This document shows positions 47,539-59,381 of a DNA stretch of 64,000 nt, in pieces. Position 1 is the stretch's first letter. The number at the start of each line of letters is the position of its first letter. The DNA is taken from contig NZ_UESZ01000001.1 of NCBI RefSeq assembly GCF_900108585.1, positions 2,976,001 through 3,040,000 on the forward strand, written 5' to 3'. Under the pieces are notes generated by a model, which was not told the DNA's origin, searched no databases, and was given only the letters and a program-made list of their open reading frames with translations. The translations under genes and the position numbers were made by a program. This DNA comes from Branchiibius hedensis. GTDB lineage: Bacteria; Actinomycetota; Actinomycetes; Actinomycetales; Dermatophilaceae.

Positions 47539-48231
47539 TCAACGTTTGGCAGTCCCAGCTCTGGCGGCGTCGCGCTGGGCGAACACCACCAGGTTGTCTA
47601 CCGCGTGCAGACTGCCCTGTCCGGCGCGCTGCAGACACGTGATGATCATCAACTCGTTGCCCCGCTCCTGCCACCGGCTCCACATCCGCTGCGATTCGGT
47701 GGCCGCGACCTTGTCGATGACCATCGTCGAGCTCACGGTGTAGGCCACCCCTTCGACGATCACCGGATCCCCGGCCCGGATCACCGCGTGCGAGTCATCG
47801 GGCGCCATCGAGAACAGGTAGTTGCCCGGGCTGCGCCCGCCGTACACCGCGTGCATGGTCACCACGCTCAGCCCCGACGCGGGGTCGCGAGGCTGTCCGT
47901 ATTGCCGGATCAGGAACGCGGCGGTGAATGACGGGGGATTGATCACCCCCGCCGTGACCTCCATCGACTCCAGCGGTACGTCGAGCCCCTGGTCCGGCGC
48001 TCGGAACCGTTCTCCGGTGGGACGCACCTGCGCCCCCTGCACGTCCGGCGGATCATCCGGTACGACGACCGAACCGTTCATGTCGGTGAGCGCGCCAGGC
48101 GTCGGGTCGGGTCCCGCGACGTACTGCCGAAGGCTGAACCCGCCAACGGCAAGGGCGCCGATCACGACGGCGACCAGAGCGAAAGTGACCGCCCTGCCCC
48201 GCCGTCGTGCGGCGCCCTGCCGCGGGCTCAC
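47539..48231 (-). CDS. Sortase (class F-like)
   Basis: The 230-residue protein has an N-terminal membrane anchor (VTFALVAVVIGALAVGGFSL) and a sortase domain. The catalytic Cys is in LMIITCLQR; the Arg is probably in that segment, and the His in VVTMHAVYGG. The GTG start overlaps the stop of the giant surface-protein gene (GTGA), so it is expressed with that protein and probably attaches it to the cell wall. The His environment is unusual for a sortase, where GHR or similar is common. Confidence 0.82.
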   Translation of the reverse strand: MSPRQGAARRRGRAVTFALVAVVIGALAVGGFSLRQYVAGPDPTPGALTDMNGSVVVPDDPPDVQGAQVRPTGERFRAPDQGLDVPLESMEVTAGVINPPSFTAAFLIRQYGQPRDPASGLSVVTMHAVYGGRSPGNYLFSMAPDDSHAVIRAGDPVIVEGVAYTVSSTMVIDKVAATESQRMWSRWQERGNELMIITCLQRAGQGSLHAVDNLVVFAQRDAARAGTAKR

Positions 48232-51200
48232 TGCTCCTTGCGACGGCGCGACACCAGCATCGTGGTGGCTCCGGCAGCGAACAGTAGAGCGATGCCAGCC
48301 ACCCCTAGAGCCCAGGGGTTGCCGGTCGACCCGACGTGGCCACCGGTGGAGACCGACGGCGGCGGGGTGCCGGTCGGCGTCGTCGTCGGCGCCGGGGGCG
48401 TCGTCGAGGAGGGCGGAGCCGTCGGCGCGGTGGTGGGTGGCGTCGTCGTCGGCGGCGTTGTGGGCGTCGTCGTCGGAGGCGGCGTCGGCGGTACCGGGGG
48501 TTTGGTGAAGGTGTTTGTCACCGTGATGGTCAGCTGCTGCATCTCATCGGAGGTGCCGACCACGACCGCGTCCTCGTACGAGCCGTTGCTGACCTCGGTA
48601 GAGGTCGCTCCCCCGGCGTCGGTCTCCTGCGCGAAGCAGTGGGTGCCGCGGGGCAGCTTCAACTCGTTGCCGTCCGCATCGGTCGGAGTCAGCACCTGAC
48701 CGCCCTTGATCGCAACCGCGTCGGAGAAGAGCGTCACCCGATCACCACTCGGCGTCTCGATCTGACAGGTGAGTTGCACGGTGAAGACCTTGTCGCGAGC
48801 GCTCTGCGCGTTGTCGCCGGCCAGTTCTTTGGCCAGGGCAATCGTCCCGGCGGAGAACTCGTTGATGAAGCCGGCCGTGACGACCTGGGCCACACCCGCG
48901 TCGTCCACGTCGGGAATCGTGACCGTGACCGGCGCCGGGGTGGTATCCGCACCGCCGTTGTCGGTCTCGCGCACCACACACTGGGCGCCGACCGGCAACG
49001 GGCTGAGCACCTCGGACTTCAGCTCCGCGCTGGTGCCGTCACCGGTCAGCGTGACCTCGTGGTCGTAGACCTGCGCGCCGTCGAAGGTGCAGACAACCGA
49101 GAAGACGAACGGTCCGACCGACGCCTCCGGAGAGCCTGGGCCTTCGACCTGCTTGAGGATCTGCAGACCACCGGCGCGGTACTCGTTGACGATGCCCACC
49201 TGGACGGGGTCCTGATCGGCGGGCCCGATGACCACCGGCTTGCTCTGGTCCGGATTCTCCGGATCGGCCGGGTCGTAGGTCACCCCGGTCGCGCCGTGCT
49301 GGTTGGTCTCCCGCACGACACACGAGGCACCGACCAGGGTGTCGACCGTGGTCGTCTCACCCGGGGTGATCGTGATCTGCCGCGGGAAGCCCGGCAGTGT
49401 CTTGCCGTCCGCGGTGCACGTGACCTCGGCCGGGAAGGATGCGGCGGCGTAGTCCTTCGCAGCTCCCTCGACCGTCTTCGTGACGGCCAGTGAGCCCGCC
49501 TCGAAGGTGTTGGTCGCGGTCACAGCGGCGACCTCGGCCTGCGAGCCACCGATGGTGACCGTGCCGTCCTCGGGATCCAGGCTGGAACTGGTCGCCCCTG
49601 CGGCGTCGGTCTCGGTGACCGTGCATTGGGCACCGGTGGCGATGTGCTCGACCGACGTCTGCAACGGTTCGTCACCGCCCAGGGTGAGGTCGGTTTCGTA
49701 CACCGTCCGCGGCTGTTCGGCACCGCCGGCGTGATCGTCAAGGGTGCAGACCAGGTGGAACGTGAACGGACCTGCACCGTACGTCGACGCTGCGTCGCCC
49801 TCGACCTTCTTGGTGAGCAGCAGCGAGCCGCTGTCGAAGGTGTTGGTGACCTCAGTCGTGTTCTGGGCAGACCCGTCCGATCCGTCCGGCGCCAGCGTGC
49901 CGGTGCCGGTGGCTGAGGTGTCGTCCCCGGTCGTCGTCTGGTAGCTGACGCTCGCCCCGGTGTAATCGGACTCGGTCACGGTGCAGGTCGATCCTGCCGG
50001 CAATCCCGTGAAGGTGTGCGATTGACCGTCGTCCAGCGTGACCTGCATCGGCTCGTCGGCCGAGTAACCCTTGGCGTAGACCGGCTGACCGAGGAAGGTG
50101 CACTCGACCGCGATCTGGAACGGGCCATAGGTGATGGGCGAGCCGTCCTGATCCGTGGCCGTCGTCGTCACGTGCTTGCTGACCACGAGGGAGGCTTCGT
50201 CGTAGACGTTGGTCAGCGTGATGATGGGCACGTTCTGCTCGTCGCGAGTGATCGTCACGTGCGTCGAACTCGAACTGGTCTGGCCGCCGTCGCCCGACTC
50301 GGTGACCCAGCAGTCGGCGTTGTAGGGCAGATCCTTGACCGTCACCGGAGTGTTCGGCTTCAAGGTCAACGTCGCCTTGTCGCCGAGATCGACGTCCACA
50401 CCGACCGACGTGCAGTGCAGCGTGGCGGTGAAGGAGTCCGGCGCGTACTGGGCAGCGGCGCCGGTGACCACCTTCTCGACCTGCACGGGTCCGGTCGCAA
50501 GCGACACCCCGACCCGCGCCGGTTCAGTGGTCAGCGTGGTGTGGACGGTGCCGTTGGCGCGCACTGCCTCGGCTCGGGCTCCCGTGGTGTTGAACGCGAT
50601 GGTGTCCGCACCAGCGGTCGGCGACAAGGCGGGCGCCGTCTGCGGAATGTCGACACTGAACCCGCTCAACGGCCCGATGAACGACTTGCTCGGGGTGTAG
50701 ATGAACTGGAAGGCGGTGATGGACTGCAGGACATCGTCCGGCAGGGTCGTTCCCTCCGCCCACGGTGTCCACGCCCCCGCCGGGCAGGCGTCCGGCTTGA
50801 CCTGCGTCAGGTCATCGAGGCACAGGTTGTCAGAGGTCGTGTAGTAGACGGTCAACTCCGTCGAGTTACCGCTGACCAGCGACGGCCGCCCGGCCGGGAT
50901 CGGTCGCCACTGCGAGCCGCGGGCGAGGCTGTTGGTCGAACCGGTGTCACCCGGCTTGGGCAACCGGTCGATCGCGACCATGCGGTCCTGCGATTCGTTG
51001 CCGGTGTTCACGTACTTCGCGCGCCAGGTGATCTGGCCGCCCGGCTTGGTGATCGGGACACACGGCGTGCCGTAGAACCCATCGGCGTCGGGCAGACAAA
51101 CCCGGTGCGTCACCTTCGTCAACGCCGGGTCGGTGATCACCCCGAGGGTGTCTGAGTCCTCGGCCTTGACCCGCTTGGACACCCCGATCGCCGCTCCCTC

Positions 51201-54200
51201 GCCGATGGTGTTGGCGGCCGTCGTGGTGCAGGCGCCGGTGGTGGGATCCAGGGTGCCGGAGCAGGTGTCCCACGGTCGGTCCGCGGTGATGCCGACCTTG
51301 TTGGTGAACGTGGTCTTGGCGGCCAACCCTGGTCGCGTGGTCACCGAGAACGCGATGGTGTAGGTCTCGCCCGGCTGCAGGATCGAGCCCTGCGGGAACG
51401 TGAAGGTCAGCGATGTCGGCGCCCCTTGGCCATCGGACACCTGAGCCACCGACACGTCGGTCGACTCGATCGGCATCGCGGTGTCCGCGGTCGACGGCGG
51501 CGCCAGCGTGTAGGTGTACCGATCACCCTCTGCGACGTCCGGGTTGAAGACCAACTGGGCGCCCTCGGCGTCGGTCGGCATGGCGTCGATGATCACGGGG
51601 TTCTGGATCGGTGCCTTGCCGGTGTTCTTGACCGTCACGGTGTAGGTGAACGGAATGCCGGGTTGGTAGGTGTTGCCCTTGGGGTTCTTGGTGATTTGCA
51701 CCGCGTTGTTCAGGTGCAGGTAGTCGATGTGCGCCGCGGCGTCGTCCTGCGCCGCGATCGGAACCCCGTCGCCGTCCAGTGCCGAACTGGTGGCCAGTAC
51801 GTCGACCTGGTCACTGGCCCGGCCGGCTTGCGTCTCACCCGGTGCGGGCGTGTTGCCCTTCTCGTCGGTGAGGACCGGGCCGCCGGTCTGCAGCGTGGCG
51901 CGCCGGGTCACCTGGAACGTGACGTTCTGCTTGGGCGTTGCCGGGTTTTCCCAGTTCTTACCGTCGGCGCGCGTGAAGGTGAACCGCAGTCCTTGGACCT
52001 GCGCCGGTGTCACGCCCGCGGGCAGCGCCAGGGTGCTGCCCGGGTCGCCGATCTTCCAGGTCGCGCCGGTCAGGACGGGTTGACCGTCCACGACACTCCA
52101 GGTGCCGCCGGTCAGCGCATCGACCCGGACCTGGTTGATCGGGTTGGTGAAGGAGAAGGCTGAGAAACCGGTGAAGTCGTACTGGTTCCAGAACGTCGGT
52201 GCGTCGTCCTGGACGACCATCTTCACGGTTCGCGCCGGGCCTTTGGGCTGGCCGCTGAGAGTCACGGCGACGGGTGAGTTGTCGCCCTCCACCTGGCTGG
52301 CCGGATTGATGGTCTTACCGGCCTGGACGGTCAAGGAACCGGGGACCAGGGCGATGGCGGCGCTGTCCTTGTCCGAGGCGGTCTTCGTGTCGTCAGGGAA
52401 GTCGACCAGGTCCTTGCCCGTGGTGGTGGCCTCATTGGTGATGGTGGCGGGCGCCGTGACGGGTGATCCGTCGGCCCGATGCGTCGGGCGCAGCCGCGTG
52501 TCGAACGCCACGGTTGCCGTGTTGTGGGCACCGCGGATCTGGTCGGTGGCGGAATTGATCCGGCCGGTGTAGACGATGTCGAAACCGATCGCGCCCTCGA
52601 AATCGCTGGGCGATGCGTCCAGGGCCTCCTGCCGCGTGAACGTGCGGTCCGGTGCACCGTCCGCATAGTGCACGGAGATCGTCACGTCCGAGGCGCCGAT
52701 GTCAGCGGGTTCGGTGATCGTCTCGAAGCCGGTCAGGTCGAAGGTGTCGAACGGGTTGGACGTGCCGGTGGGCTCGCTGATGGTCAGGGTGTCCAGCCGC
52801 GACAACGACTTGTTGGTCGCTTCGAGGGTGACCACTCCGGACGGGTACTTCTCAGCCGCCGTTCCTGCAGCGGGCACACCCAGCGGACCGCCATCCCAGG
52901 TCTTGGTCAGATCCACCTGGAGGTTGGCCGGAACGATGGTGATGTCGTCACTGGCCCGGTCGGAGTACGACGGGGTGGTGTCGCCGGGGAAGTAGGCGTC
53001 GGCTCCCGCGGTGTTGCTGACAAGACCGGCCTGGTTGGTGTTCAAGTCGGTCGTGGACAGCACCGGAACTGCGGGCGTGTGCCGGGTGACGTCGCGTACC
53101 GCGAAGACCGGGTGGATCGTGCGGTTGTCACCACTGGATCGAGCGACACCCGACCCGACGGCCGGGGTGCCGACGGCGCCGGTGCGGTTGGTGTCGGACT
53201 CCACGTAGGTCAGCCGGAAGGCGGTGGCGTCAGCGCGTTCCGCGGCCGTCAGGGTGTACCCCGGGAAGGTCCCGTCACAGGCGGCGGGGCAGGGATCTGC
53301 GGACGCCTCGACCCATTGCCCGTTGATGTACAACTCGACGCCGGCGACTTGGTCGTACTTCAACAGCGGGTCGTCCGACGCCGAGATCGGGTCGATGCGG
53401 ACCAGGTCGAAGGAGTCGAAGACCGAATCCTGGATCGGTGCCGAGGGGTTCGGCACATCGCTGATGACGACTTTCTCGAAGTCGGAGAAGCCACCGGTCG
53501 ACCAGTGCAGCGTCGCACCGCGCTCATCGCCGGAACGCTCGGCCACGTTCGCCGGGTCGTCCCAGTTCTTCGTCAGCAGGTCGGCTTCGCCCGGCTCGAC
53601 GTGCTTCAGGTCCACTTCGGCGCAGCCCTGGGAGTGGGCGGGCGTGCTGACCGTCGGGGCGCTGCCATCCGTGCCGGCGCAGTTGCTGATCGTGGCGTCC
53701 TGGTTGGGTACCTCGGGGCGCACCTTCGAGGTGAAGTTGGGTGAGAAGGAGGTGCCGGGCGGGAAACCCGTGCAGCCCGCAGCGGGCGTGTACACGAACT
53801 GCAGGCCGTGCGCGTCGATGTCCGCGGGCAGCTTGCCGGAGAACCGCTGGGGACCCTGCAGCGCGACCATGCCGGGCACGGGCAGCCACGCCGTGCCGTT
53901 CCAGTAATTCACGGTCAACTGCGCGCACTCGTTGATCTCCGTGCTGTCCACCGAGGTGGGTCGGAACGTGTCGAAGAAGTTCGGGCTCGCCGTCGGATCT
54001 TCGGGATCCTGGACCACGACCTTCCGGGCATCGACGGTGGAGTCCGGGAAGGCCTTGATGGTGCCGGTCAAACCGGTCGTGACGTCCTGGCCGGGCACGG
54101 CCGGGATCTGGTTGGGAGTGATCCGCTTCGTGGTCGATGTCGCGATGCGGTCGGCCAGCGTGACCAGCGTGGCGTCAGCGGTGGCCGGGTCGCTCGTGGC

Positions 54201-55745
54201 CCCGTCCAGGCCGGTCTGGGCACTCACCTGGTTGCCGTGGGTCAGCGAGTCCACGCTCTGTTCGGAGTCGGTGTCGACGGTAAACGGCAGGGTTGCCTCC
54301 GCGCCCGCCTCGATCGTGCCGGTGAAGGTCACCGTGAAACCGGTCGGCGTACACCCGGCAGGCGGATCGGGCAGGGTGTTCGGTTCGGTGGTGGTCAACG
54401 GCTGACCCGAGCACCCCGGACCGGTGTAGGTGATCGCCGCCTGGGTGGCTCCGCTGGGCCAGGCGACACCATCGGTGAAACCCGTGAAGGTGAGCGGATT
54501 GTCACCCTCGAACGGGTTCGTGGCGCCGGACGGCTCTTTGATGGTGAGCGAGTCAACGGGGACGTTCGAGGAGTTGGTGGCACCGATCGTGACGGTGCTC
54601 GGGTCCCCGGCGTGCACGGTGGCTGGCGTAAAGGTCTTGGTGACGTCGGCGCTCAGCTGCGGCGGGGTGATCACGTAGCTGTCGTCCGCAGGATCGGAGG
54701 TCTTGGTCTGGCCGTCCTGCGTGGTGACCGTGGTCTGCGCGTCGTTCGTGACGGTGACCGGGCCGTCCAGGGTGGTGACGTTGTCGCGTTGTTCGACGGT
54801 GAACGGGATGGTGGCGGTGGCGCCCGGTGCGATGCCGTCTCCGGTGGTGTCGGTGAAGACGTACCGCAGGCCGGTGACCTCGCGGGGGTCGACTCCTGCC
54901 GGCAGCGCCGCCGGCGGACCCGGGGCGCCTTCGACCCAGTCGCCGTTGACATAGGCCCACACCACGACCTGGTCAGCGCCCGCGGGCATCGTGACCTCAC
55001 CAAGCGGAGCGGTGACCCCGAGGTAGGTGAACGGGTTCGGAGCGGCCACCGGGTTGACCGGATCCTGCACGACCATTTCGTGGACCGGAACGTTCGAATG
55101 GTTCCTACCGGTCAGCGTGACGTCTGCCGTCGTCCCGGGTTTGGCTGAGGCACCCGACGGTTCGATCGACTTCGTCGTGGTGGCGTCGATCTCGGTAGTC
55201 ACGACCGGCGTCACGTCCGCCGAATCGGACTGCTGGGTCGCGTTGTCCGCGGTCGAGGTGGCGGTGTTGGTGATCGTCTTGCCGTTGACGCTCGCCGGGG
55301 CGTCAGCAGACAGCCGCACCGGGATCGTGACGGTGAGGGTGTCGCCCGACTTCAGGCCCGTTTTGCCGCCGCCGAGGGCCTGGTTGACGTCGACGCGCAC
55401 GACGTTGTCCGGGCTGACGGTCACGGTGGACGGCTGGTTGTCGACGGTGACATCGCCGGCGGGTTCGATCCACTGCGGCAACGGGTCGGTCAGGACGTAG
55501 TTCTCACAGCCGCCCACGGCGACCGAGGAACACGCGACGGTGATGGTGTAGAGGAATTCGGTGCCCGGCGTGAGTTCGCCGTCGACCTGGGCGGTCTTGG
55601 CCATCTGCATCGTCGCGGTCGGGTCGGCCGCAGCCACCTGCGCAGCGGTGGCCAGGCTCATGGTCGCGACCAGGGCCACCACCAGTGCCATCGCGGCCAC
55701 CACCCGCACCGCGACCGCGTGCTCGAACCGTCGAATCGCCGCCAT
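48228..55745 (-). CDS. Giant DUF5979-repeat surface protein (2505 residues)
   Basis: From ATG 55745 the protein has a signal peptide (VVAAMALVVALVATMSLATA), then about 1,800 residues of DUF11-like beta-sandwich repeats (for example VTPVVTTEIDATTTKSIEPS). Six DUF5979 repeats follow, beginning VQVEKVVTG, SLVVSKHVTT, SLLLTKKVEG, SLAVTKTVEG, GLQILKQVEG and TIALAKELAG. Each repeat carries a pair of cysteines (such as VECTF and STCTVTE) that could form one disulfide. Next come a Pro/Thr wall-spanning linker, a membrane segment and the basic tail SRRRKEQ. There is no LPXTG; SVSTGG or GSTGNP precede the membrane segment. A sortase gene overlaps the stop. Likely cell-wall-anchored adhesin or fibre. 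Confidence 0.87.
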   Translation of the reverse strand: MAAIRRFEHAVAVRVVAAMALVVALVATMSLATAAQVAAADPTATMQMAKTAQVDGELTPGTEFLYTITVACSSVAVGGCENYVLTDPLPQWIEPAGDVTVDNQPSTVTVSPDNVVRVDVNQALGGGKTGLKSGDTLTVTIPVRLSADAPASVNGKTITNTATSTADNATQQSDSADVTPVVTTEIDATTTKSIEPSGASAKPGTTADVTLTGRNHSNVPVHEMVVQDPVNPVAAPNPFTYLGVTAPLGEVTMPAGADQVVVWAYVNGDWVEGAPGPPAALPAGVDPREVTGLRYVFTDTTGDGIAPGATATIPFTVEQRDNVTTLDGPVTVTNDAQTTVTTQDGQTKTSDPADDSYVITPPQLSADVTKTFTPATVHAGDPSTVTIGATNSSNVPVDSLTIKEPSGATNPFEGDNPLTFTGFTDGVAWPSGATQAAITYTGPGCSGQPLTTTEPNTLPDPPAGCTPTGFTVTFTGTIEAGAEATLPFTVDTDSEQSVDSLTHGNQVSAQTGLDGATSDPATADATLVTLADRIATSTTKRITPNQIPAVPGQDVTTGLTGTIKAFPDSTVDARKVVVQDPEDPTASPNFFDTFRPTSVDSTEINECAQLTVNYWNGTAWLPVPGMVALQGPQRFSGKLPADIDAHGLQFVYTPAAGCTGFPPGTSFSPNFTSKVRPEVPNQDATISNCAGTDGSAPTVSTPAHSQGCAEVDLKHVEPGEADLLTKNWDDPANVAERSGDERGATLHWSTGGFSDFEKVVISDVPNPSAPIQDSVFDSFDLVRIDPISASDDPLLKYDQVAGVELYINGQWVEASADPCPAACDGTFPGYTLTAAERADATAFRLTYVESDTNRTGAVGTPAVGSGVARSSGDNRTIHPVFAVRDVTRHTPAVPVLSTTDLNTNQAGLVSNTAGADAYFPGDTTPSYSDRASDDITIVPANLQVDLTKTWDGGPLGVPAAGTAAEKYPSGVVTLEATNKSLSRLDTLTISEPTGTSNPFDTFDLTGFETITEPADIGASDVTISVHYADGAPDRTFTRQEALDASPSDFEGAIGFDIVYTGRINSATDQIRGAHNTATVAFDTRLRPTHRADGSPVTAPATITNEATTTGKDLVDFPDDTKTASDKDSAAIALVPGSLTVQAGKTINPASQVEGDNSPVAVTLSGQPKGPARTVKMVVQDDAPTFWNQYDFTGFSAFSFTNPINQVRVDALTGGTWSVVDGQPVLTGATWKIGDPGSTLALPAGVTPAQVQGLRFTFTRADGKNWENPATPKQNVTFQVTRRATLQTGGPVLTDEKGNTPAPGETQAGRASDQVDVLATSSALDGDGVPIAAQDDAAAHIDYLHLNNAVQITKNPKGNTYQPGIPFTYTVTVKNTGKAPIQNPVIIDAMPTDAEGAQLVFNPDVAEGDRYTYTLAPPSTADTAMPIESTDVSVAQVSDGQGAPTSLTFTFPQGSILQPGETYTIAFSVTTRPGLAAKTTFTNKVGITADRPWDTCSGTLDPTTGACTTTAANTIGEGAAIGVSKRVKAEDSDTLGVITDPALTKVTHRVCLPDADGFYGTPCVPITKPGGQITWRAKYVNTGNESQDRMVAIDRLPKPGDTGSTNSLARGSQWRPIPAGRPSLVSGNSTELTVYYTTSDNLCLDDLTQVKPDACPAGAWTPWAEGTTLPDDVLQSITAFQFIYTPSKSFIGPLSGFSVDIPQTAPALSPTAGADTIAFNTTGARAEAVRANGTVHTTLTTEPARVGVSLATGPVQVEKVVTGAAAQYAPDSFTATLHCTSVGVDVDLGDKATLTLKPNTPVTVKDLPYNADCWVTESGDGGQTSSSSTHVTITRDEQNVPIITLTNVYDEASLVVSKHVTTTATDQDGSPITYGPFQIAVECTFLGQPVYAKGYSADEPMQVTLDDGQSHTFTGLPAGSTCTVTESDYTGASVSYQTTTGDDTSATGTGTLAPDGSDGSAQNTTEVTNTFDSGSLLLTKKVEGDAASTYGAGPFTFHLVCTLDDHAGGAEQPRTVYETDLTLGGDEPLQTSVEHIATGAQCTVTETDAAGATSSSLDPEDGTVTIGGSQAEVAAVTATNTFEAGSLAVTKTVEGAAKDYAAASFPAEVTCTADGKTLPGFPRQITITPGETTTVDTLVGASCVVRETNQHGATGVTYDPADPENPDQSKPVVIGPADQDPVQVGIVNEYRAGGLQILKQVEGPGSPEASVGPFVFSVVCTFDGAQVYDHEVTLTGDGTSAELKSEVLSPLPVGAQCVVRETDNGGADTTPAPVTVTIPDVDDAGVAQVVTAGFINEFSAGTIALAKELAGDNAQSARDKVFTVQLTCQIETPSGDRVTLFSDAVAIKGGQVLTPTDADGNELKLPRGTHCFAQETDAGGATSTEVSNGSYEDAVVVGTSDEMQQLTITVTNTFTKPPVPPTPPPTTTPTTPPTTTPPTTAPTAPPSSTTPPAPTTTPTGTPPPSVSTGGHVGSTGNPWALGVAGIALLFAAGATTMLVSRRRKEQ

Positions 55746-58172: not shown

Positions 58173-59381
58173 TCAGAAGGCGCTGACCCCGTTCGGGGTG
58201 CCGAGGCCGGTCGGGCCGTCCCAGCCGGTTCCCGCAGTGCACCAGTAGCTGCAGGTGCCGTTCGAACCCGAGGTCACGTCGAACAGCCCCGAGGTCGCCG
58301 CGTAGGGCTTGGTGTTGGCGTAGCCGGAGGTGTTGCCCGACAGTGCGTAGACGCTCGCGACGATCGGCGATGACAACGAAGTGCCGCCGTACTGCGACCA
58401 ACTGGATGCGGTCGCGCTGGTCGGGGCGTAGACCGCCAAGCCGGTGTTCGGGTCGGCGACCGCGGACACATCGGCCATCGCCCGACCCGAGCAGTTGGTC
58501 ACCGAGGAGCTCTGACCGGCCGGAGCCGTGTTGTACGACGAGCAGCCGGATCCTGCGTCACTCCAGGCTGATTCGGTCCAGCCCCGGGCGTTCGAGGAGG
58601 TGTTCAACGAGGTGCCACCCACGGCCGTGACGTACTGCGAGGAGGCCGGGTAGCTGGCGCCCTGGTAACCGTCGTCACCGGTGGAGGCAGTCACCGCGAT
58701 ACCGGAGTGCTTGTAGTACTTGGCGTACGTCGTGTCCTGGGCGTCACCGCCGCCGTAGCTGTTGGAGATCGCGACGACACCCGACTGCTTGGCGGCCGTG
58801 TTGACCGCGGTGCCGAGGTTGGCGAACGACGCCGTCTTCGCTTGCACCAGAACGATTTTGCAGTCCGGGCACGCGGCGGAGACCGCGTCGAGGTCGAGCG
58901 CCTGCTCCTGGTCCCAGCCCACGTTGGTGGCGGGCAGCGAGGTGGTCGAGCCGGTCTGGCTGATGATGGTCAAGCACCCGTTGGCCTTGGTGCAGGCGGA
59001 CAGGCCGAACTGCTTGCGATAGACGCCGAGGTCGCGCTCCGCGTTGGGGTACCCGTAGGCGTCGACGATGGCCACGGTGCGCCCACCCGACGTCAGACCG
59101 GAGAGCTTGTAGGCACTCTGGATGTCCGACGGGGTCTTGCCGGAGATCGCGTTCGGGGTGATCGCGGCGCCGCGAGCGTTCACCGACTTGCCCGTCGTGG
59201 GATTGGTGAGGTGGATCGCGTAGCACGACGCGTAGCCGGCCTTCGGAGTGGTGGAACAGGAGTGGACCTGGGTGACGGACGCCTTCGCGGTGGTGACGGC
59301 GTCCGCCGACGGCAGTGCCACGCTCATCGTTCCGGCGGTAGCCAGAGCGAACAGCGTGGCGGCCAGGGGGGTCTTACGCAT
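58173..59381 (-). CDS. Secreted S53-family (sedolisin-like) serine peptidase
   Basis: The 402-residue protein has a signal peptide (TLFALATAGTMSVALPSADA). S53 features are the E and D of the catalytic triad in GWDQEQALDLDAVSAACPDC and the nucleophile Ser in YGGTSLSSPIVAS. Oxyanion Asp is probably in SPGDDGYQ-like STGDDGYQGA. There is no long N-terminal propeptide; the segment at residues 30-80 may be a short one. Proteins of this size are common in actinomycetes. Substrate unknown. Confidence 0.85.
   Translation of the reverse strand: MRKTPLAATLFALATAGTMSVALPSADAVTTAKASVTQVHSCSTTPKAGYASCYAIHLTNPTTGKSVNARGAAITPNAISGKTPSDIQSAYKLSGLTSGGRTVAIVDAYGYPNAERDLGVYRKQFGLSACTKANGCLTIISQTGSTTSLPATNVGWDQEQALDLDAVSAACPDCKIVLVQAKTASFANLGTAVNTAAKQSGVVAISNSYGGGDAQDTTYAKYYKHSGIAVTASTGDDGYQGASYPASSQYVTAVGGTSLNTSSNARGWTESAWSDAGSGCSSYNTAPAGQSSSVTNCSGRAMADVSAVADPNTGLAVYAPTSATASSWSQYGGTSLSSPIVASVYALSGNTSGYANTKPYAATSGLFDVTSGSNGTCSYWCTAGTGWDGPTGLGTPNGVSAF

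Follow-up and report, generated by a model that had tools for sequence, protein, structure and literature searches.

A divergent class F-like sortase and the giant DUF5979 surface protein encoded beside it in Branchiibius hedensis

How is a very long surface protein without an LPXTG signal attached to the cell, and is the sortase encoded directly behind it the enzyme responsible? This question is raised by two overlapping genes in a 64,000-nucleotide stretch of the Branchiibius hedensis genome (the whole of the DNA analysed, here referred to as the window), for which a first-pass annotation proposed a private enzyme-substrate pair with a new sorting motif. Class F sortases were first studied in Propionibacterium (Cutibacterium) acnes, whose SrtF acts on LPXTG. 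In a 2016 paper, signals are given for sortase classes A-E, with class F left blank (PMC5148588). A 2026 study of Actinoplanes, which sought LPXTG-like motifs only, removed all four class F sortases and saw no phenotype (PMC13251363). Our reading of the locus, to which we give a probability of roughly three in four, is that the two genes form one anchoring unit in which a dedicated class F-like sortase anchors a single giant, isopeptide-stabilised stalk.

A conserved, overlapping gene pair

The features of the two genes are as follows, with the basis of each in brackets.

48228..55745, minus strand: giant secreted surface protein, 2505 aa (Pfam, sequence, Humibacillus ortholog)
55626..55745, minus strand: putative N-terminal signal peptide region, residues 1-40, ending ...AAQVAAA (sequence, by eye)
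50490..55625, minus strand: about 8-9 DUF11-like Ig repeats, residues 41-1752 (profiles, two-repeat model)
48507..50489, minus strand: residues 1753-2413, comprising six DUF5979 domains that all carry a Cys pair and an isopeptide triad of Lys, Glu and Asn (Pfam, sequence)
48366..48506, minus strand: Pro/Thr-rich wall-spanning linker, residues 2414-2460 (sequence)
48339..48356, minus strand: putative cleavage site SVSTGG, residues 2464-2469 (position, comparison of sortase-adjacent C-termini)
48252..48314, minus strand: C-terminal membrane helix, residues 2478-2498 (sequence)
48231..48251, minus strand: basic tail SRRRKEQ (sequence)
48228..48231, minus strand: GTGA stop/start overlap of the giant and sortase genes (sequence)
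47539..48231, minus strand: class F-like sortase, 230 aa, with N-terminal membrane helix (profiles, AlphaFold model, tree)
47851..47853, minus strand: codon of catalytic His127, in TMHAV (sequence, alignment)
47635..47637, minus strand: codon of catalytic Cys199, in TCLQ (sequence, alignment)
47605..47607, minus strand: codon of His209, which aligns with the third catalytic residue (alignment)

Coordinates and Pfam agree with the annotated protein of 2505 aa carrying six Cys-paired DUF5979 repeats. Six stretches of it match DUF5979 (PF19407, 212 bits), and all of these contain one Lys, a terminal Asn and two paired Cys residues, the second of which is always followed four residues on by a Glu, so that the Lys/Glu/Asn triad is found in 6/6 repeats. 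A triad of this type was listed for DUF5979 by a 2025 survey (PMC12617251). The description of the remainder as many DUF11-like repeats stood in part: six N-terminal segments matched one another when tested with leave-one-out HMMs, R4 weakly and the other five strongly, but a single repeat passed the Pfam cut-off for DUF11 (PF01345, 27.5 against 24.6). An AlphaFold model of two repeats, built from two sequences, was all-beta (pLDDT 79) and lay nearest to the C-terminal domains of antigen I/II at a TM-score of only about 0.35, a likeness that is at most suggestive. A separate binding head was looked for in the giant and none was recognisable. Most simply, the protein would serve as an adhesive or aggregating fibre. 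A promoter scan at the locus gave no match. Elsewhere in the window (58173-59381, minus strand) lies a gene for a 402-aa secreted protein that by eye resembles a sedolisin-type (S53) protease and had no Pfam match at 0.001.

The sortase gene overlaps the stop codon of the giant, as annotated, its GTG start sharing 4 bp with the TGA in the sequence GTGA. In Humibacillus sp. DSM 29435, a 2475-aa giant is 45% identical to that of the window over its length and keeps 24 of 28 Cys residues; it too is overlapped by a sortase gene, whose product is 44% identical to the window sortase and has TMHSV around the catalytic His. Because this orthologous overlapping pair exists in Humibacillus, the enzyme-substrate gene pair is conserved across genera beyond chance expectation. 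Humibacillus was the only match in a wide scan of genome contigs for relatives, and none were found in plasmids and viral contigs.

A divergent sortase clade beside class F

The window sortase is poorly captured by existing profiles. It scored 12.8 bits with Pfam Sortase (PF04203), below the gathering cut-off of 26.6, while other members of its clade reach an E-value of 8e-13 with the same model; with the NCBIfam class F model NF033748, whose cut-off is 166, it scored 18.4 bits, and the other NCBIfam sortase class models, class C and E included, did not match it. The AlphaFold model (pLDDT 86) nonetheless predicts a clear sortase fold despite the divergent sequence, with a top hit to a sortase C1 at Z 14.6 over 134 residues and many sortases above Z 12. 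Sortase matches among structures came from the profile search and the fold search; phmmer with single sortases against PDB sequences gave no matches, and a C. acnes SrtF structure was not among the matches listed. His127, Cys199 and Asn213 are invariant in 44 aligned sortase sequences, and His209 aligns with the third catalytic residue in a loop where the alignment is gapped.

To place the enzyme, divergent sortases were gathered by profile searches from 396 genomes of the order and then from 396 of the phylum. A quick tree of 134 sortases set apart 19 rows including the window sortase (98% SH-aLRT), and for most sortases of this clade the gene immediately ahead encodes a large, membrane-tailed surface protein. 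A more careful tree with a class E outgroup, from which a mis-parsed class E row (L206) was set aside, recovered 13 of the 19 rows as monophyletic with full support (100/100). Their branch is long, lies with class F and is split from class E at 100/100. The clade thus lies beside class F, being either sister to it or nested in it.

The setting of the catalytic His, VVTMHAV, is present as annotated. It was taken there for an oddity of this enzyme, a view that the alignment does not bear out, since the clade, of at least 19 sortases, has its own H-[S/A] signature: Ser follows the catalytic His in 18/19 members (Ala in the window), where Val does so in 92/115 class F enzymes. After the catalytic Cys the clade has [LF]Q (TC[LF]Q) and class F has GG (TCGG), and near the C-terminal end the clade mostly reads G-R-S-x-D-N against G-H-Y-x-D-N in class F. 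The window sortase, with TMHAV and TCLQ, accordingly lacks the class F signature GHV ... TCGG. A lipobox-like start (e.g. LTLSACGG) was observed in 24/134 of the class F-type sortases sampled and in none of the window's clade; the 24 include four from the same genome (L003, L005, L006 and L007) and 20 others, and such enzymes may be lipoproteins rather than membrane-helix proteins.

Signals beside class F-type sortases

The family and the phylum were sampled for C-termini encoded beside class F-type sortases. A protein with a membrane tail ends just upstream in 104/136 cases, and LPXTG occurs in 0/104 of these C-termini. A motif search returned [G/P]-G-[VMI]-x-[TA]-[GD]-G, located 3-18 residues ahead of the helix, with V, M or I at P3 in most tails (e.g. 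GGVxTGGG). A motif score of at least 7 was reached by 80/102 sortase-adjacent tails and by 6/53 other membrane-tail frames, the 78% being optimistic, given that one set served both to train and to score the motif; the six high-scoring control tails resemble further class F substrates. The signals fall into the subtypes GVxTG, VxAG, xTD and SNTGVE, and these follow the sortase tree, with 18 changes against a mean of 45.6 and a minimum of 40 after shuffling. Such tree-like distribution points to stable co-inheritance, which would be expected of co-diversifying pairs and of mere neighbours alike. The commonest subtype is covered by GVDTG_CTERM, already modelled in NCBIfam 20.0; among the papers searched, none used that name, and one, on a Gardnerella adhesin, matched the term VXTG.

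Several variants were seen in these tails. Asp replaces the Gly after the cut in V-x-T-D tails (PVVETD, PPVITDGP) at L003, L010, L014, L096, L120 and L124, and tails upstream of L086-L100, L117 and L153 (GVPAGxGG, GVNAGSGGQ or RVDAGSGGQ) have A-G at the presumed cut. The nearly identical tail GSVKTGVGG...VQTAAGVAALAVAAAGGTWLLHRRARGDGI precedes the class F sortases L128, L129 and L131-L133, from several large genomes of another family. One sortase (L025:2652-3503, minus strand) has no upstream substrate; its convergent neighbour ends in AVVKTAVYE, close to the PVVKTGAYV of the L017 group.

The survey suggests why class F substrates get missed, in that V, M or I rather than P stands at P3 and the cut is sometimes at A-G or T-D. 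Pairs of T-G type without L-P proved common around class F-type sortases, few of whose natural targets are known, and the sortase-adjacent tails offer concrete, testable enzyme-substrate pairs and possible new ligation tools.

The C-terminal signal of the giant

In the giant, the Pro/Thr linker is followed by SVSTGGHVGSTGNP, then by 21 hydrophobic residues and finally by SRRRKEQ, so that the linker, SVSTGG, membrane segment and basic tail of the annotation are all present. LPXTG is absent from the tail, as the annotation had stated, and the tail alone scored 14.5 bits with TIGR01167 against a cut-off of 15.9. It gave no match to GVDTG_CTERM (NF058571) at E up to 10 and a weak one to PVV_CTERM (NF051874; 16.9 against 27), reaching no curated cut-off and resembling the LPXTG and LAVTG models weakly. 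PVV_CTERM was rejected as the signal family on account of this weak score and the finding that 1/20 PVV-like loci adjoins a class F-type sortase; that one locus carries a GAETG-type tail.

Tails of the clade were then compared by shuffling with a motif whose training set was limited to class F tails from other branches. The giant's tail with SVSTGG gave a p-value of about 0.045, the tails of the L017 group 0.013-0.029, L020 0.03 and L027 0.005; those of the SNTGVE group gave 0.1-0.23, and the Humibacillus tail did not fit (0.67). The exact letters SVSTGG are by themselves weak evidence, and it is unlikely to be a new motif of fixed sequence, given VSDTGG at this place in the ortholog, where P4-P3 are VS rather than SV. 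T-G-G-[HQ]-[VL] is common to the two, and L020 likewise has TGGQL. From these three sequences this may be the conserved core of the signal, a reading weakened by TGGQL in some L-A-x-T-G tails (L176). Either the P4-P3 positions would be read loosely in the clade, or recognition would have moved to the prime side. A bolder proposal, which we regard as speculative and rather improbable, makes the clade a sortase class of its own, in which the active site would have been rewired to read T-G and the residues following it instead of P4-P3, and every enzyme would have a single large surface protein as its substrate.

The absence of LPXTG, which the annotation took as special to this pair, turned out to be the rule: no surveyed tail has it, other class F operons of the same genome likewise lack it, and the GVDTG signal is already modelled. 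The strict reading of a private motif was rejected, since signals of the VxTG type generally accompany class F-type sortases. What stands of the proposed private pair is a conserved overlapping gene pair, a non-LPXTG signal and an enzyme unlike the other sortases of the genome.

Alternative explanations

The genome encodes eight sortases, namely one of class E, six of class F type and the window sortase. Because an LPHTG protein and the class E sortase are encoded too, both kinds of signal coexist in it, and tails such as GVQTGAG and TVQTGSV stand beside its other class F-type sortases. Family and tail searches of the genome for other substrates found no second protein with a giant-like tail (best E 0.06). 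Private use of the giant by the neighbouring sortase is plausible from these sequences, but the six class F-type enzymes and the class E one might process it too. The giant could then be anchored by any class F or class E sortase of the genome, its neighbour being a redundant, non-exclusive helper. The number of sortases, the VxTG signals beside several of them and the weak likeness of the giant's tail to the LPXTG and LAVTG models would all be consistent with such sharing; we nevertheless consider it unlikely, given that the overlapping pair is kept in another genus, that the sortase belongs to a clade with its own active-site signature and that signal types track the sortase tree.

Less probable still is that the sortase works as a pilus-like polymerase, joining giant subunits together either before they are attached to the wall or in place of that step. 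Pilins do contain DUF5979 and related CnaB domains, and the substrate of L020, within the clade, has a streptococcal pilin isopeptide domain. The operon, however, has a single substrate gene and no second pilin gene, class C sortase models do not match the enzyme, and a stalk of 2505 aa has no need of polymerisation. We attach equally little weight to a degenerate, inactive sortase that would leave the giant as a tail-anchored membrane protein. The third catalytic position, which is Arg in 12/19 clade members, is His in the window, with L009 and L020 having Ser or Ala, but His127, Cys199 and Asn213 are kept, and an open frame with 44% identity has been maintained between genera. The loss of Arg as a sole sign of inactivity was rejected, since His is the commonest residue at this position in class F (63/115).

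Proposed mechanism

We return to the reading of a dedicated sortase and its substrate, under which the window sortase probably cuts the giant at a T-G site without L-P and fixes it to the wall. Export, arrest in the membrane, cleavage between T and G and transfer to the cell wall make up the established sortase pathway. From the computed overlap and conservation of the genes, the fold and clade of the enzyme and the anatomy of the tail, we infer a similar route here. The signal peptide would export the giant, and the C-terminal helix and basic tail would hold it in the membrane. The co-translated sortase would then cut SVSTGG between T and G by means of Cys199 and pass the acyl intermediate to a cell-wall precursor. 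The predicted product would be a covalently anchored stalk in which isopeptide and disulfide bonds lock about 14 Ig-like domains, with one enzyme presumably serving one substrate.

Comparison with known systems

The giant resembles the DUF5979/DUF11 (CLIPPER) isopeptide stalks (PMC12617251), which are fibrillar surface proteins with tandem domains, Lys/Glu/Asn triads and disulfides, and differs from them in its great length (2505 aa) and the lack of a recognisable binding head. Like class F sortases (NF033748), the window enzyme is actinobacterial, has the sortase fold with catalytic His and Cys, and has its gene immediately 3' of that for a substrate with a membrane tail and no LPXTG. It departs from them in its score (18.4 bits against 166), in having HS/HA and TC[LF]Q rather than HV and TCGG, and in its separate, long-branched clade. 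The class E sortase/LAXTG system (PMC5148588; NF033747, NF058582) is also actinobacterial with a signal departing from LPXTG at P3, and some of its LAVTG tails share the prime side TGGQL; the window sortase, however, falls in a distinct clade, gives no class E match and has a signal without L at P4. GVDTG_CTERM (NF058571) is likewise a non-LPXTG signal, found in this survey beside class F sortases, in which T-G forms the cut site and P3 is V or M; the giant's tail does not match that model, has S at P4 and shows a P3 that is not conserved in the ortholog. Non-LPXTG signals of the GVDTG kind are thus already known; the signal and sortase of the window are a divergent variant, and with its giant stalk the pair is an extreme one.
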